Below are positions 12,397 to 19,964 of a stretch of DNA of 23,560 nt, piece by piece; position 1 is the first letter of the stretch, and every line of letters starts with the position of its first letter. The notes beneath the pieces were generated by a model. That model worked only from the letters and a program-made list of their open reading frames with translations. It was not told where the DNA came from and made no database searches. A program made the position numbers and the translations under genes. Origin of the DNA: a virus. The stretch covers positions 1 to 23,560 of the IMG/VR virus record IMGVR_UViG_3300018083_000113; one strand, given 5' to 3'.

Positions 12397-13879
12397 GGCC
12401 GCCGCGCTGACCAGCGACGAACTCCTAGCCGACGAGGTCGCGCAGTATTACGCGGACCCGCTTGGGTTTGTGCTCGCGATGTATCCGTGGGGCGAGCCTG
12501 GCGAACTGCAGAACGATACCGGCCCCGATGACGTCCAGCGCGAGTTCCTCGAGCAGTTGGGCGAGCAGGTCAGGGCGCGCGGATTCGACGGCCAGATGCC
12601 CGTCAGCGCCATCCGTGAAGTGGTGTCCAGTGGTCACGGTATCGGCAAGTCAACGCTCTGTGGCTGGCTCGTTGACTGGCTGATGAGCACGCGGCCGTAT
12701 TGCCGCGGCACGATCACCGCCAATAACTTCACGCAACTCGAGACGAAGACCTGGGCCGCCATCAAACGGTGGACAAAGCTCTGCCTGACCGGGCACTGGT
12801 TCATCGTGCTCGACACGCTGATGTATCACCGTGAGCACAAGGCGTCATGGTTCTGCGCGCCACAGAGCTCGAAAGAGGAAAACTCAGAATCGTTCGCCGG
12901 CCAGCACGCGAAGAACTCGACCAGCTTCTACATCGTGGACGAAGCCTCAGCCGTCGTAGATGCCATCTTCGAAGTCGCGGAAGGTGGCCTAACCGATGGC
13001 GAGCCGATGATTTTCCTTTTCGGCAACGCGACGCGGTCGGTGGGGAAGTTCCACCGCGTGTGCTTCGGGTCGGAGCGGGCGCGCTGGCATCAGACCATCG
13101 TCGACTCGCGGCGCTCACGGTTCACGAACAAGGAACAGATCGATGAGTGGATCCAAGACTTCGGAGAAGACTCCGATTTCGTCCGCGTGCGCGTGCGCGG
13201 CCTGCCACCTCGTGCGTCAGATGCGCAGTTCATCGATTCCGACAGAATCCTTGCCGCCCAAAAGCGAACAGTTGTTGTATTGCCAGATGAACCCCTCCTC
13301 GCGGGATGCGACCTGGCTTGGGGCGGCGCCGACGACAACGTCATCCGATTCCGTCGAGGACTCGACGCCCGTTCTATTCCAGCCGTCCGCATCAAAGGCG
13401 AGTTCACGCGCGACCCAGCGGTCCTGACAAACCGCCTGGCTGACGTGCTGACGCAGACCTACGACGGCGTCAAGGTGGCGATGTTGTTCCTCGACTCTGC
13501 GGGTATCGCCGGCCCGATTGCGGCCCGGCTGCGACAGCTTGGCTTTGCGAACCGCGTGATGGAAGTGAACTTCGGGTCAGACTCACCGGACGCGAAGTGT
13601 CGCTACATGCGGGACCACATCTGGAACCAGGGCAAGCAATGGCTGATGACCGGCGCCATCGATTCGTGTCCGCAGTTGGAGGCCGACCTGGCCGGGCCCG
13701 GCGTGCGTCACGACAACCGCCAGCGCATCTGGCTCGAGTCGAAGAAGGAGATGAAGGCGCGCGGCGTCGACTCTCCCGATGATGGCGATGCGCTGTTCCT
13801 GACGTTTGCGGCGCCCGTGGCCGCGGTAGTGAAAAAGCCGGCGAAGCGTCGGGTTGAGGGTGGCACATGGATGGCGTAG
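12389..13879 (+). CDS. terL: Terminase large subunit
   Basis: A 496-residue protein from ATG 12389; GTG 12359 is a weaker alternative. ATPase domain: Walker A GHGIGKST at residues 82-89, Walker B YIVDEA with D184-E185, and a coupling FGN at 211-213. RNase H-like nuclease domain: D308 in GCDLAWGG, D369 in LFLDSAG, and the Asp cluster near 464-467 (SPDDGDALF). Both activities look intact. It powers DNA into the empty head through the portal and cuts concatemers. The stop lies 13 bases inside the portal gene, so packaging motor and portal are coupled. Confidence 0.95.
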   Translation: MPEAAALTSDELLADEVAQYYADPLGFVLAMYPWGEPGELQNDTGPDDVQREFLEQLGEQVRARGFDGQMPVSAIREVVSSGHGIGKSTLCGWLVDWLMSTRPYCRGTITANNFTQLETKTWAAIKRWTKLCLTGHWFIVLDTLMYHREHKASWFCAPQSSKEENSESFAGQHAKNSTSFYIVDEASAVVDAIFEVAEGGLTDGEPMIFLFGNATRSVGKFHRVCFGSERARWHQTIVDSRRSRFTNKEQIDEWIQDFGEDSDFVRVRVRGLPPRASDAQFIDSDRILAAQKRTVVVLPDEPLLAGCDLAWGGADDNVIRFRRGLDARSIPAVRIKGEFTRDPAVLTNRLADVLTQTYDGVKVAMLFLDSAGIAGPIAARLRQLGFANRVMEVNFGSDSPDAKCRYMRDHIWNQGKQWLMTGAIDSCPQLEADLAGPGVRHDNRQRIWLESKKEMKARGVDSPDDGDALFLTFAAPVAAVVKKPAKRRVEGGTWMA

Positions 13880-16071
13880 AGCAGACCGACGACGACCAGA
13901 CGCCGGACGTCGACCCGAATGTCGCCCTGTTGGCGGCCCAGCGGGAAGAGATGGAGTTGTCGGACACGGCGACCGGTGAGCAGCGCAAGCGCGAGATCGC
14001 CGACCTCGATTTCGAGCAGGGCAACCACTGGACCGACGAGGACATCAAGAAGCGCAAGCTCCAGCACAAGCCGACATTCGTCATCGACCACATCTCGGGG
14101 CAGATTCAGCAGGTCACGAACCAGCCTGTACACCGCATCGTCGTGACGGCTGTCGGGCGGAATGCGGACCCGACGAGCGCAGAGGACTGGCAGGGCTACT
14201 GCCGGCGTGTCGAGAACCTGTCGAACGCCGAGGACGTCTACAAGTGGGCGCGCATGCACGCGGCGAAGATGGGCCGCGGTTTCTGGCGCATCCGGCCGGA
14301 CGTCTTCGCGATGCCGGAGTTCGGCCCTGGCGTGCAGTTGGACGGCTCAATCTTCAATCAAGACCTGCGCATCGAAGCCATCGTCAACCAGCACTCGGTC
14401 TACGAAGACCCGCGCTGTCGGATGCTGGACTTCTCCGATCAGCGGTTCTGTAACATCGCTGAGGACATGCAGTGGTCGGAAATCAATCGGCTCTATCCGC
14501 GGCGTGACAAGGTCGAGCGGACGGGCGACACGGTGCGCGCGACTGGCGACTGTCCGGCGGAATGGGCGACCGAGAAGACCGGGCGCGTCATCGAGCGGTA
14601 CTGGATCGACGACGAAGTGCTGTCGTTCTGCATGCTCAAGACCGGCGAAGTCGTCCTGAAGGACGGCAACGCCAAGTATCCGGCCGACTCCATCGCTCGA
14701 GAGCACACGTTCCGCGTTCCAAAGGTGAAGTGGCTGAAGTCGATAGCCGGCGTCGAAGTGGTCGAAGGCCCGGTCGGCGTGCCTGGGAAATACATTCCGG
14801 TCGTGAAGATTGTCGGCGAGCGCCGCATTGTCGACGGCAAGGAAGACAACCGCGGCATGGTCCGAATGGCGAAAGACCCGGCGCGCCTGCTCGATTTTAT
14901 GGAAACGCGGTTGGCGCAGGCGGTCGACATCGGCACCATCGATACATGGCTGGTCGCCAGCGAGTCTATCGGCGACAGCACGGACTGGGACGACCTGGCG
15001 GCTGGCGGGCGGCCGGCGCGGCTGATGTTCGACGCCGTTGATAAGACGCATCCTGACGGGCCTCGACTCCCGACGCCACAACACGTCTCGGCGGCTCCGG
15101 TGGTTGCGCCGATTGTGAACGCGGCCACGCGCGCCTCGATGAACCTGCGGCACGTCCTGGGGATTCCAGACGTCGCGCCGGAAGAGAAGGTGTCCGAACA
15201 GAGCGGGCGCGCCATCAACGCACGCCGGCAGCAGCAGCAGGTCGCGACGAGCCACTACGCCGATTCGACCGCGGCCGGTATTCGCCTGACGGGTCGCATC
15301 ATCATGGCGATGGCTCGAGAAATTCTCGACGTCCCACAGGTCTTGCGCATCATGGGCGCGGACGAAAAGCCGGTGGAACTCGTCGCCTACAAGGGTGGCG
15401 ATCCACAGCGCGAGCAGATGGCGCAAGAGATGATGCAGGAGCGCCCGGCTGCGGCCGGGCAGAACGGCCAGGCGCAAGCGCAGGCGCAGGCCCGCCGGAT
15501 GCTACGGGTCGACCTGGGCGAGTTCGATGTGGACGTGACCGCCGGCAAGGGCTACCAGAGCGGTCGACAGGAAACCGTCGACAACCTGACGAACATGATT
15601 CAGGCGGCGCCTCAGATTGCCCCGAAAGCCATTCCCGTCATGCTGAAGAACAGCGACTGGCCCGGCGCGATGGAGTTGGCGAAGGCGCTCGAGCCGGACC
15701 CTGACGGCGCCACAGTGCCGCGGGAAGAGGCCGAGAAGGCCCAGAAGGTCATCGACATGCTCGTCGAGAAGGTCGACGGGCTCGAGAAGCAAGTGCAGTC
15801 CAACGAGCGCGACCTGCAATCGAAGGAGAGCATCGCGCAGCAGGACAACGCCGCCAAGGTGCAAATCGAGCAGATGAAAGCGGATCTCGAGCAGCAGCGC
15901 ATGGCGTTCGAATTCCAGTTGGAGGAGCGGAAGATTCAAGCGGACATCGACAAGATGAACGCGCAGATCGCCGCCGACATCGAGAAGGCGAACATCAGCG
16001 CGCAGGCGGCAGTGGAAACCGCGAGGCTGAAGCCGGAGCCGACGTTCGCACCTGAAGGCGGGGTTGCATGA
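13867..16071 (+). CDS. P22-type portal protein
   Basis: A 734-residue protein from ATG 13867. The N-terminal part matches P22-like portals: DFEQGNHWTDEDIKKRK, KPTFVIDHISGQIQQVTNQP, then VENLSNAEDVYKWARMHAAKMGRGFWRI. P22 gp1 is about 725 residues, so length fits. Residues about 620-715 form a long coiled coil (DMLVEKVDGLEKQVQSNERD...), like the barrel helices of P22 portals. A short Gln/Ala repeat (QAQAQAQAR) lies near 535. Twelve copies would make the head vertex that DNA passes through. Its stop overlaps the next ATG. Confidence 0.92.
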   Translation: MDGVEQTDDDQTPDVDPNVALLAAQREEMELSDTATGEQRKREIADLDFEQGNHWTDEDIKKRKLQHKPTFVIDHISGQIQQVTNQPVHRIVVTAVGRNADPTSAEDWQGYCRRVENLSNAEDVYKWARMHAAKMGRGFWRIRPDVFAMPEFGPGVQLDGSIFNQDLRIEAIVNQHSVYEDPRCRMLDFSDQRFCNIAEDMQWSEINRLYPRRDKVERTGDTVRATGDCPAEWATEKTGRVIERYWIDDEVLSFCMLKTGEVVLKDGNAKYPADSIAREHTFRVPKVKWLKSIAGVEVVEGPVGVPGKYIPVVKIVGERRIVDGKEDNRGMVRMAKDPARLLDFMETRLAQAVDIGTIDTWLVASESIGDSTDWDDLAAGGRPARLMFDAVDKTHPDGPRLPTPQHVSAAPVVAPIVNAATRASMNLRHVLGIPDVAPEEKVSEQSGRAINARRQQQQVATSHYADSTAAGIRLTGRIIMAMAREILDVPQVLRIMGADEKPVELVAYKGGDPQREQMAQEMMQERPAAAGQNGQAQAQAQARRMLRVDLGEFDVDVTAGKGYQSGRQETVDNLTNMIQAAPQIAPKAIPVMLKNSDWPGAMELAKALEPDPDGATVPREEAEKAQKVIDMLVEKVDGLEKQVQSNERDLQSKESIAQQDNAAKVQIEQMKADLEQQRMAFEFQLEERKIQADIDKMNAQIAADIEKANISAQAAVETARLKPEPTFAPEGGVA

Positions 16072-16766: not shown

Positions 16767-17464
16767 TTCGCTACGCGCTGGTGCTCTGTGTGGGGATGCT
16801 GATCGGAACCGGGCTCGTCGCCGGCATCATGCGCTGGACGGAGCACGACGTCATTGCCCCGATTGCCGTGACGGAGACGAACGGGGCGTGGACGATTACC
16901 GAGGCAACGCCCTGTGTGCCGTTGGAACCTGGGGCGCCTGTGTTGCAGGTTGCAGCCCCCACAATCCAACGCGGTGAAGAGGGTAAAGCCGTCGCGCTCT
17001 ATCCCGATGGCTGGCTCGGTGGTAGTTCGGATGTTGACATCACCGGCACGGGCGGGTTGTATGCGGACCTGAGCGCCAACAGCTACATCCGGATGGGCGC
17101 CGAGACACGCGAGCAGGTCATCGCGTTCCTGCGCACGCTGGAGCCCGGCCTGTTGGCGTCAGTCGGCTACATCGGCGACGATGGCGACTGGCACGCGCTG
17201 ACCAAACGCGACTTAGCAGGCGACTTTCAGCCGTTCACGGTTCAGGGGCAGACAGGCGATCCCAGCTTCCAGATACCAGTAATGGGCTTGCCGCGCCACG
17301 AGCGCGAACCGATGACCGCTGGATTTATCCAGAGCGCCACGACAGGGAGATGCTACGTCGAGTTTTGGCCCAAGCGAACCGCGGAAGAATTGACGCAGGC
17401 GGTTATCAGGGACGACAAAGAGGACGTCGAAATAGTGTGTCCGGTGGTGTTACAGCAAAGATAG
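16763..17464 (+). CDS. Hypothetical membrane-anchored or exported protein
   Basis: A 233-residue protein from ATG 16763 (ATGA overlap). Residues 1-24 (MIRYALVLCVGMLIGTGLVA...) are a hydrophobic anchor or signal. The rest looks globular and beta-rich: TETNGAWTITEATPC, a GGLYADLSANSYIRMGAE segment, and C-terminal CYVEFWPKR and VEIVCPVVL. Four Cys fit disulphides outside the cytoplasm. It ends the portal-linked run, just before the RNA-like unit at 17466. Unknown function; superinfection exclusion or an envelope role are guesses. Confidence 0.55.
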   Translation: MIRYALVLCVGMLIGTGLVAGIMRWTEHDVIAPIAVTETNGAWTITEATPCVPLEPGAPVLQVAAPTIQRGEEGKAVALYPDGWLGGSSDVDITGTGGLYADLSANSYIRMGAETREQVIAFLRTLEPGLLASVGYIGDDGDWHALTKRDLAGDFQPFTVQGQTGDPSFQIPVMGLPRHEREPMTAGFIQSATTGRCYVEFWPKRTAEELTQAVIRDDKEDVEIVCPVVLQQR

Positions 17465-17465
17465 C

Positions 17466-17493
17466 TTGACAAGCGCGACAGATAACCCATACT
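17466..17493 (+). promoter_or_regulatory. Promoter before RNA-like unit
   Basis: A perfect -35 TTGACA (17466-17471), 16 bases, then CATACT (4 of 6). It begins two bases past the previous stop. Predicted start of transcription is near 17500. Confidence 0.55.
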
Positions 17494-17499
17494 TGACCG

Positions 17500-17714
17500 C
17501 GTAGTTAGACTCGCGCGGCAAGGGCGCGGGGCAACAAATCACAGCCGCTGGCGCAAAGGGCGCAGCCGACAGATGTCGGCGCCGGTTCGACTCCGGAGGT
17601 AATCCGGTTCGATTCCGGCGCGGCAAAACAATCCAGCGCATACGCTGGGCCGACTGGCACAACCAAGGCCCGGTGGAACTTCTCTCTTCGGAGGGGCGTT
17701 CCGCCGGGCCTTTT
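17500..17714 (+). ncRNA. Putative structured small RNA, tRNA-like
   Basis: Non-coding block of about 215 bases between promoter and terminator. Hairpins seen: GCGC/GCGC (17551-17563), GCCGAC/GTCGGC (17565-17580), CCGG-TTCGACT-CCGG (17582-17596), CCGG-TTCGATT-CCGG (17604-17618) and CCAGCG/CGCTGG (17633-17648). The two CCGG hairpins have 7-base loops of the tRNA T-loop type. No consistent acceptor stem, anticodon arm or CCA end was found, so it is not called a tRNA. It may be a free small RNA or the regulated leader of the capsid genes. Confidence 0.4.
17665..17714 (+). terminator. Intrinsic terminator before scaffold gene
   Basis: A 15-bp stem with one G-U pair, AAGGCCCGGTGGAAC (17665-17679) with GTTCCGCCGGGCCTT (17698-17712). 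A 5-bp inner helix is capped by a UUCG tetraloop (17682-17695), and TTTT runs from 17711 to 17714. It sits 15 bases before the scaffold ATG. A complete Rho-independent terminator or attenuator. Confidence 0.8.
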
Positions 17715-17729
17715 CGCGTTTCAGGACAT

Positions 17730-18740
17730 ATGAACGAACCGACTGCCACAGTCGAGACACCAGCAGCGTCACGCGAGACGTTTAGCCTGGCGAAATTCCG
17801 CGAGTCAGAGACTCGTGAGACTCCTGCTGTACCCGCGGTCGATGACGCGCCAGACCCCGAGGTCGAAGCCGACCCGGAACTGCGCAAAGCCATCGACGAA
17901 CTCGAGGCACCGAAGCCTGAAGAGACACCGCAGGAGAAGCGTGCGCGCACGCTCAAGCACAAGGCCGCAGCCCGCAAGGGTTTCGAGACGCGCCAGGCGA
18001 ACAAAGTCATTCGCCTCGAGCGCGAGATTGAAGAGTTACGCCGGGCCCCACAGGCGCCGGCAGGCGGGCCCACAGCGCCCGTTGCAGCGAACCAGCCCGC
18101 GGCACGACAGGCTGAGACAGACGCGAGTGACCCCGAACCGACGTTCGAATCCTTCGCCGCCGCGCATCCGGACCACCCCGACGTCTATGCCGGGTTTGTT
18201 CGGGCGCAGGCCGCCTGGGACCGCCGAGAGGAGCAGCGCGCGGACAAGCGCACGGCTGACGCCTCAAAGCGAGACGCGACACAGCGCGAGCTCGTGACGC
18301 GTTTCGGCGAACACCGGGACGCGGGCAACTCGAGTCATGCGGACTTTGAAACGTCCCTTGGTGCTCTCGGTTCCGCGCTGCGGAACCATCCGGCTGATGA
18401 AGTGGTGTTCAAGGCGGTAGGCGCCATCCCCGACAAGGCTGTCGGCGGGGAAGTGCTCTATCGCCTGGGCCGCGACATCGCCGAGACACGCGCGGCCGCC
18501 GAACAAGGCGAAATCGCGCTCCTGATGCACATCGGACAGGTCAGAGCCGTCGTCACCGCGGAGGCGAAGGCGAAAGCCGTGCCCACCGCATCACCTGTTG
18601 TCACGAACGCGCCGCCACCGCACACACCGGTTGGCGCCGTTACACATGGCACCCCGCAGAATCCTGCGTCGAAGGCCGGCACAAAGCTCTCCCTGCGAGA
18701 ACTGCGCGCCTTCGAAGCGGCTCACGGGCGCCGGAGATAA
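17730..18740 (+). CDS. Probable scaffolding protein
   Basis: A 336-residue protein from ATG 17730 with AGGA upstream; the frame's extension to 17673 lies in the terminator. It is highly charged and Ala/Glu/Pro-rich, with predicted helices (KVIRLEREIEELRR, DRREEQRADKRTAD, ETRAAAEQGEIALLM), and ends in a basic helix (LSLRELRAFEAAHGRRR) like the coat-binding end of P22 gp8. Its place between portal and coat and its length agree with a P22-type scaffold that guides shell assembly and then leaves. No direct family motif; identification is by position and composition. Confidence 0.7.
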   Translation: MNEPTATVETPAASRETFSLAKFRESETRETPAVPAVDDAPDPEVEADPELRKAIDELEAPKPEETPQEKRARTLKHKAAARKGFETRQANKVIRLEREIEELRRAPQAPAGGPTAPVAANQPAARQAETDASDPEPTFESFAAAHPDHPDVYAGFVRAQAAWDRREEQRADKRTADASKRDATQRELVTRFGEHRDAGNSSHADFETSLGALGSALRNHPADEVVFKAVGAIPDKAVGGEVLYRLGRDIAETRAAAEQGEIALLMHIGQVRAVVTAEAKAKAVPTASPVVTNAPPPHTPVGAVTHGTPQNPASKAGTKLSLRELRAFEAAHGRRR

Positions 18741-18746
18741 GCCGCT

Positions 18747-19964
18747 ATGGCAATGCTGACCAACGACGAGATCACAGCGAAGGCGCTGGACATTCTCGAG
18801 TGCGAGTTCGGCCCGGCCGCGCACACCACGCGCGACTATCAAGGGCTGTTCGGCCCCCAGCCGGGGATGTCGAACAAGGGCGCGACGTACCAAATCAGGA
18901 AGCCGCCCCTGTACGAGGTCAACGAAGCCTGGGCCGCGTCGTACCAGGGCGTTGACGACGATTACGTTCCGCTGACCATCGACAAGCCGCGCTCCGTCGA
19001 TGTGCGGATCACGGACGAAGAGTTCCACCTGAACATGACGTCGTTCGAAGACCAGGTGCTGAAGCCGGCAATGTCCGCGCTGGCGCACAAGGTCAATCTC
19101 GACGTGATGTCGCTCTACAAGAAGGCGTGGAACTACGTCGGCGTGCCCGAAGTCATCACGTCGGCGACCGCGGATTTCCTGACCGCGGGCGCCATCATGG
19201 ACGAGAACTGCGCGCCCCGTGACGGCTCGCGGGCCATCTTCCTGCCGCCGGCCGGCATGGCCGCGGCGGTCGAAGCGCAGAAGTCGTTGCAGAACGATCA
19301 GAAGAAGATTTCTGACCAGTTCCGCCGCGGCATGATCGCCAAAGACGTTCTGGGCTTCGACTGGCACATGACGCAGGTCGTCCGCAATCACCTGTCCGGT
19401 GCGAACACCGGGGCGGGCCTGTGGGACGGCGCGAGCCAGACCGGCGCCTCGCTTCTCTTCGACAGCTTCACGGCCTCATCCGCCGCGTTGAAAGAGGGCG
19501 ACATCATCGTCACGCCGTACTACGACGTGAACCCGGTCACGAAGGAGCGCACCCGCCGCCGTAACGTCGTCGTGACATCAGATGTCACCTCGGACGCCAC
19601 TGGCGACGAGACGCCCGTGCCTGTCGCGCCCGCGCTCATCGCGGCCGGCAAGACGCAGAATTTCACCGGCACGCAGTCGGACGCCGATGACCTCCTGCTC
19701 TTCAACCACGTCTCGAGCTACGTCAACAAGACGTTCGCGCAGGGCATGGCGTGGCCGAAGCAGGCCATCGCGATTGCGTTCTGCGAGCTCAAGGTGCCGA
19801 AGGGTATGGACATCGGCGCGACCAAGACCGATGAAGACCTGGGCATCTCCGTCCGCATGACGCGCACCTGGGATCAGGACTCGTCCTCGTGGAAGGTTCG
19901 ATTCCAGATTTTCTACGGCCTCGCGGTGCTGCGGCCCGAGTGGCTCGTTCGGATTCTCTCGTAA
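18747..19964 (+). CDS. Major capsid protein, P22 coat-like
   Basis: A 405-residue protein from ATG 18747, six bases behind the scaffold stop. It follows the P22-coat/HK97-fold pattern: an N-terminal helix (LTNDEITAKALDILECEFGP), a strand block (YVPLTIDKPRSVDVRITDEEFHL), the long spine helix (LKPAMSALAHKVNLDVMSLY), and a C-terminal beta/helix end (KVRFQIFYGLAVLRPEWLVRIL). P22 gp5 is 430 residues. A beta-rich insert near residues 245-300 corresponds roughly to the place of the P22 I-domain. It forms the icosahedral head. A hairpin follows the stop. Confidence 0.88.
   Translation: MAMLTNDEITAKALDILECEFGPAAHTTRDYQGLFGPQPGMSNKGATYQIRKPPLYEVNEAWAASYQGVDDDYVPLTIDKPRSVDVRITDEEFHLNMTSFEDQVLKPAMSALAHKVNLDVMSLYKKAWNYVGVPEVITSATADFLTAGAIMDENCAPRDGSRAIFLPPAGMAAAVEAQKSLQNDQKKISDQFRRGMIAKDVLGFDWHMTQVVRNHLSGANTGAGLWDGASQTGASLLFDSFTASSAALKEGDIIVTPYYDVNPVTKERTRRRNVVVTSDVTSDATGDETPVPVAPALIAAGKTQNFTGTQSDADDLLLFNHVSSYVNKTFAQGMAWPKQAIAIAFCELKVPKGMDIGATKTDEDLGISVRMTRTWDQDSSSWKVRFQIFYGLAVLRPEWLVRILS

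Follow-up and report, generated by a model that had tools for sequence, protein, structure and literature searches.

A tRNA-like RNA element with two T-arms in a phage head gene cluster and its family in other phages

What does the long gap directly upstream of the scaffold gene in this phage encode, and does it serve the capsid genes that follow or form a gene of its own? The window, by which we mean the whole 23.6-kb virus record analysed, carries a P22-type head cluster made up of terminase, portal, two unassigned genes, scaffold and coat (Table 1). A first-pass annotation had described a 265-base gap ahead of the scaffold gene with a perfect −35 and a fair −10 element, several small hairpins, and a terminator with a 15-bp stem, a UUCG cap and TTTT ending 15 bases before the scaffold, all of which we were able to confirm.

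The gap before the scaffold gene

The promoter-like site matches the consensus at 10 of 12 bases and is unique within the 10.5 kb scanned; shuffles yield 1.0 such site, an ordinary count, and its weight comes solely from its position directly upstream of the RNA and on the correct strand. From the sequence, transcription is expected to start near 17500. The series of hairpins in 17500–17720 folds with −120.6 kcal/mol (z = −6.25 against dinucleotide shuffles), and folding equal to that of the terminator hairpin (17665–17712, 15 bp plus 6 bp) was reached in only 3 of 2,350 segments of the same size. A simple terminator scan overlooked this hairpin because its T-run is just four long.

Table 1. 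Features of the gap and the neighbouring head genes, in window coordinates.
Feature	Position	Strand	Details
P22-type portal gene	13867–16071	+	PF16510, E 1e-88
Intergenic gap	17465–17729	+	265 nt, from stop of last unassigned gene at 17464 to scaffold ATG at 17730
Sigma-70-type promoter-like site	17466–17493	+	TTGACA (−35, 17466–17471), 16 nt, CATACT (−10, 17488–17493); position-specific support only
Leader hairpin	17510–17530	+	7 bp, 7-nt loop; fold
tRNA-like core, five-arm cloverleaf with two T-arms	17544–17624	+	Covariance model match 17543–17625; constrained fold
Acceptor-like stem, 5′ strand	17544–17548	+	GCCGC; 5 bp, family norm 7
Arm 1, D-arm-like	17551–17563	+	GCGC-AAAGG-GCGC; GG in loop
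Arm 2	17565–17580	+	GCCGAC-AGAT-GTCGGC; tetraloop, without 7-nt anticodon loop
T1 arm	17582–17596	+	CCGG-TTCGACT-CCGG; motif and fold
Linker	17597–17603	+	AGGTAAT; fits family GG(n)AAU linker
T2 arm	17604–17618	+	CCGG-TTCGATT-CCGG; motif and fold
Acceptor-like stem, 3′ strand	17620–17624	+	GCGGC; then AAAAC, CCA not encoded
Hairpin	17633–17648	+	CCAGCG-CATA-CGCTGG; fold
Intrinsic-terminator-like hairpin	17665–17714	+	UUCG loop and TTTT; −38.8 kcal/mol
Head scaffolding protein gene	17730–18740	+	PHROG 8865, E 1.7e-12; SD AGGA 17723–17726
P22-type coat protein gene	18747–19964	+	PF11651, E 1e-25; PHROG 283

The Rfam search that the first-pass annotation had proposed gave no match in the window at gathering level and chance-level matches only at permissive thresholds; ARAGORN called neither a tRNA nor a tmRNA in the window, and when the gap was compared with named phages by similarity, only chance matches of 21–22 nt appeared. 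What the earlier reading overlooked is a tRNA-like core, and the family to which it belongs. Exact tRNA T-arm motifs begin at 17584 (GGTTCGACTCC) and 17606 (GGTTCGATTCC), 22 nt apart, where 0.02 such motifs are expected per shuffled window. When only the sequence outside the two T-arms was shuffled, 0.4% of shuffles reached the native energy of the constrained cloverleaf. The acceptor is separated from T2 by one unpaired C. A third, lone T-arm-like motif lies within the coat gene (19895–19907) and is probably a chance occurrence.

A family of twin-T-arm RNAs in phages

A search of IMG/VR with the pattern T-arm, 5–20 nt, T-arm gave at least 120 matches. Those listed are mixed, comprising tRNAs with a stray T-arm, one coding repeat, RNAs of a kind that we refer to as ‘class B’, and a large group resembling the window core. 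In this last group a 7-bp acceptor and a 5-bp T2 stem stack in exactly the manner of tRNA, and the remaining parts are a short arm with a (U)GG loop, a tetraloop arm, T1 and a linker of the GG(n)AAU type; GACG is the commonest arm-2 tetraloop, and the window has AGAT in this position. A covariance model built from 15 members (R1) found at least 37 distinct sequences above 33 bits, and a second model (R2) was built from 37 sequences that did not include the window. In an alignment of 42 members, 92.1% of cells pair versus 57% in shuffles, and compensatory cells number 337 versus 104, figures to be read with the lean of model-fitted alignments toward the model structure in mind; a MAFFT seed alignment, built without structure, agrees. 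Sliding the partners abolishes the signal, and covariation is present in every helix of the family.

Conservation of T1 is partly a matter of selection, because T1 belonged to the first search pattern, from which the linker was absent. Searches without T1 in two subfamilies recovered members with the loop UUCGAUU, among them L156, which retains this loop despite an altered closing pair. The sole exception seen is phage B23, found by BLAST, with the T1 loop UUUGAUU; three extra BLAST baits from other subfamilies added nothing new among named phages.

Membership of the window copy rests on architecture together with score. R1 scores the window core at 24.1 bits (E 1.5e-4) and R2 at 32.9 bits (E = 1e-6 for the window, next match 12.9), and in 736 kb comprising the window and its relatives R2 found nothing else above 17.4 bits; R2 also gives ordinary tRNAs up to about 38 bits, so that score alone cannot separate the core from tRNA. 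It differs from tRNA in having a second T-loop and the family linker and in lacking an anticodon loop, and the family features that it carries are tandem T-arms with UUCGANU loops, the GG(n)AAU linker, the GG loop of arm 1 and the tetraloop of arm 2. It is the weakest of the 42 members aligned, with a 5-bp acceptor, 4-bp T-stems and no CCA. Assignment to class B, which has an 11–12-nt gap and a GTGCAGGTGCAA tail, was rejected, the conserved blocks of that class being missing from the window.

Many family members lie within phage tRNA arrays and others alone near varied genes; in the cultured Synechococcus phage S-CREM1, one sits unannotated between tRNA-Phe and tRNA-Ile. Each of 36 whole records searched has one strong copy plus low-scoring matches, mostly tRNA-sized. 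By eye, NCCA is encoded directly 3′ of the acceptor in about 8 members (L013, L027, L068, L077, L080, L097, L113 and, from a bacterium, L322), against a chance expectation of fewer than 1 in about 42. The family is nearly absent from cells, with 3 matches to a linker-containing pattern in 85,000 cellular genomes. The bacterial copy (L322 6079–6154, on a Bradyrhizobium huanghuaihaiense contig) is a compact, possibly four-arm version with an encoded GCCA, perhaps within a prophage or island.

ARAGORN calls several family members (L054, L020, L058 and L109) tRNA-Ser(CGA), apparently by reading T1 as an anticodon arm, and phage annotations may thus hold false tRNA-Ser genes. Full-text literature searches turned up no account of a phage RNA with twin T-arms, which is weak evidence of novelty given that most subscription papers fall outside their coverage. 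The family appears to be an overlooked, so far unannotated kind of phage RNA.

Capsid loci and alternative readings

The element is missing from all 87 loci of phages that have a related portal or coat gene (a few of these loci are short fragments that may stop before the scaffold), and the genes preceding the scaffold are close-set in annotated relatives, with little or no space between them. The window coat protein, used as a single-sequence bait in IMG/VR, gave no matches. In two unrelated phages (L036 and L263, portal PHROG 1216) an element scoring 59–60 bits occupies the same place, between a small post-portal gene and a scaffold-like gene. A close relative of L036 with 93% portal identity, L264, is without it and reads GTTAAGTCCAACCACAGAGG at the site, where L036 has about 100 nt including the element between GTTAA and CAACCACAGAGG; L265 and L266 have unrelated filler at this insertion site. 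The pre-scaffold spacer serves as an insertion site for an element that is present or absent as a unit; the L036/L263 position is used independently of the window copy, and the window element is not a conserved part of the capsid operon. Conserved folding, which the first-pass annotation had proposed to check in related phages, is absent from the loci of the capsid-gene relatives and is found, with covarying helices, in the twin-T-arm family elsewhere. The unit in the window brings along its own promoter-like site and terminator and is missing at this place in the relatives; judged by these elements it fits a moron. As a separate observation, L036, L178/L263 and L264–L266 appear to read TAG as glutamine: the portal motif IITQKADM of L036 is IIT-TAG-KADM in L178, and scaffold genes contain in-frame TAG codons.

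These distributions bear on the idea, also raised in the first-pass annotation, that the gap is a cis-acting leader or attenuator of scaffold and coat, its terminator governed by alternative folding or antitermination. The terminator does end 15 nt upstream of the scaffold ATG, and a 1:2 / 2:3 / 3:4 scheme can be drawn with an antiterminator CTGGGCC (about 17646–17652) at −19.6 kcal/mol; complementarity as good as this, however, arises in 17% of shuffles and in 9% of coding controls, a chance level, the structure is missing from all of the relatives’ loci, and the many family members in tRNA arrays lie away from capsid genes. Attenuation of the capsid genes is possible but unsupported, and we regard it as unlikely. 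The other possibility that the annotation had named, a free small RNA of the phage that carries a promoter and a terminator for itself, is backed by the sequence; the packaging role suggested for it found no support.

We consider it unlikely that the window copy is a decaying tRNA or family member with a duplicated T-arm and no function in this phage. Its short acceptor, its 4-bp T-stems and its lack of both an anticodon arm and CCA would suit decay, but the architecture is conserved with compensatory changes across dozens of phages, and the linker and GG loop are retained in the window.

The minimum-energy fold pairs T1 with T2 (−49.1 versus −37.4 kcal/mol for the cloverleaf, in energies that leave out T-loop/D-loop tertiary contacts), a pairing made possible by the palindromic CCGG of the T-stems and TCGA. 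It would favour a simple imperfect palindrome (GCCGGUUCGA...UCGAUUCCGGC) that acts, for example, as a protein-binding or processing site and resembles T-arms by accident. A pair of T-arm motifs at such spacing arose in 0 of 400 shuffles, however, and the acceptor, two more arms and the family linker are also there, which makes an accidental likeness very unlikely. Phage attP cores often mimic a T-arm and the 3′ strand of an acceptor, but an attachment site copying the 3′ end of a host tRNA gene is highly implausible for an element with both acceptor strands, all arms and two T-arms, located inside a head cluster.

Proposed role, known analogues and other tandem T-arm elements

Taking together the sequence elements, the predicted fold, the covarying family, the absence from relatives and the presence/absence pattern near L036, we think it probable, with moderate confidence, that the gap holds a stand-alone RNA gene with a twin-T-arm core, acquired as a moron-like insertion, that is processed like a tRNA and acts as a tRNA mimic. 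Such a gene would run from the promoter through a transcript of about 215 nt to the terminator, and would have reached the pre-scaffold spacer by a moron-like insertion. Transcription may begin at its own promoter, at about 17500, or arrive by read-through, and mRNA for scaffold and coat would need late read-through or a downstream promoter. Host tRNA-maturation enzymes could recognise the acceptor/T-arm unit and trim the RNA, its ends being made by RNase P-type and CCA-type enzymes; for the relatives, this kind of end formation is supported by their location in arrays and by the encoded NCCA. The GG loop of arm 1 and the GG of the linker would be natural partners for the two T-loops, and a doubled tRNA elbow is therefore expected. 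The mature RNA might then, as a stable mimic of tRNA, occupy a factor binding the tRNA elbow or T-loop, with tRNA-modifying enzymes, RNase P, EF-Tu-like factors and tRNA-cutting defences as candidate partners.

More tentatively, and with somewhat less than even confidence, we propose that phages widely carry a dedicated class of tRNA-like RNA that has two T-arms, lacks an anticodon and is usually present once per genome. During infection it would imitate tRNA or serve as a decoy for it, and it could move into capsid operons as a self-contained gene. Such a decoy would be aimed at factors that bind, modify or cleave tRNA, host defences included. Phage tRNA arrays are usually regarded as translation aids; if the reading is right, they have a recurrent non-decoding member, missed or miscalled as tRNA-Ser, that makes up an overlooked structured phage RNA, and some phage ‘tRNA-Ser(CGA)’ calls are wrong. 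A covariance model is available for the family, S-CREM1 is a cultured phage that carries a member, and the structure predicted, with two T-loops and two GG motifs, is clear.

The closest known analogue of the twin-T-arm RNAs is T4 stable RNA C (species 1 RNA, rnaC), likewise a small non-decoding RNA from a phage tRNA cluster, in whose 3′ part a canonical T-arm is enclosed by an acceptor-like stem of 7 bp (CGGAACG/CGTTTCG); unlike the family, it has only one T-arm, is about 140 nt long and has other inner arms. Homology with T4 RNA C or D was considered and is unsupported by score, R1 giving RNA C 17.9 bits, no better than T4 tRNAs. With tRNA (RF00005) the family shares the acceptor–T-arm stack, a D-arm-like GG hairpin and, in some members, an encoded CCA, but it differs in the second T-arm, the extra tetraloop arm and the lack of a 7-nt anticodon loop. 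tmRNA also has a tRNA-like domain without an anticodon arm, whereas neither a tag reading frame nor pseudoknots were found in the twin-T-arm core, which spans only about 80–100 nt. GOLLD and ROOL RNAs are likewise structured and tied to phage tRNA arrays, but are hundreds of nucleotides long with another structure; a ROOL match occurred in 1 of 20 loci scanned (L039), adjoining a different tandem T-arm motif. Like phage morons, the window unit occurs sporadically between conserved head genes with its own promoter-like site and terminator, but it codes for RNA rather than protein.

Other tandem T-arm elements were seen alongside the family. Class B (L025 7977–8009, minus strand; L048 12178–12210; L024 10153–10185, minus strand; further loci in L065, L075, L079, L091 and L119) has the order TGAAGC/TGCAGC, T1, AAAC, 4–5 nt, T2, GTGCA-GGTGCAA, apparently with a variable outer closing stem, and its conserved blocks differ from those of the window’s family. 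In L014, L021, L069, L071, L089, L105, L106 and L121, a phage tRNA or tRNA-like T-arm has another T-arm directly behind it and then a conserved block such as CGAATGTGGTTCGATTCCACTCGTTGATTGAGGTT.TGGTAAGT, which looks like a further conserved RNA joined to tRNA 3′ ends. L109 566–632 is a closed element with three consecutive T-arms and the acceptor TAAGAGAGT/ACTCTCTTA.
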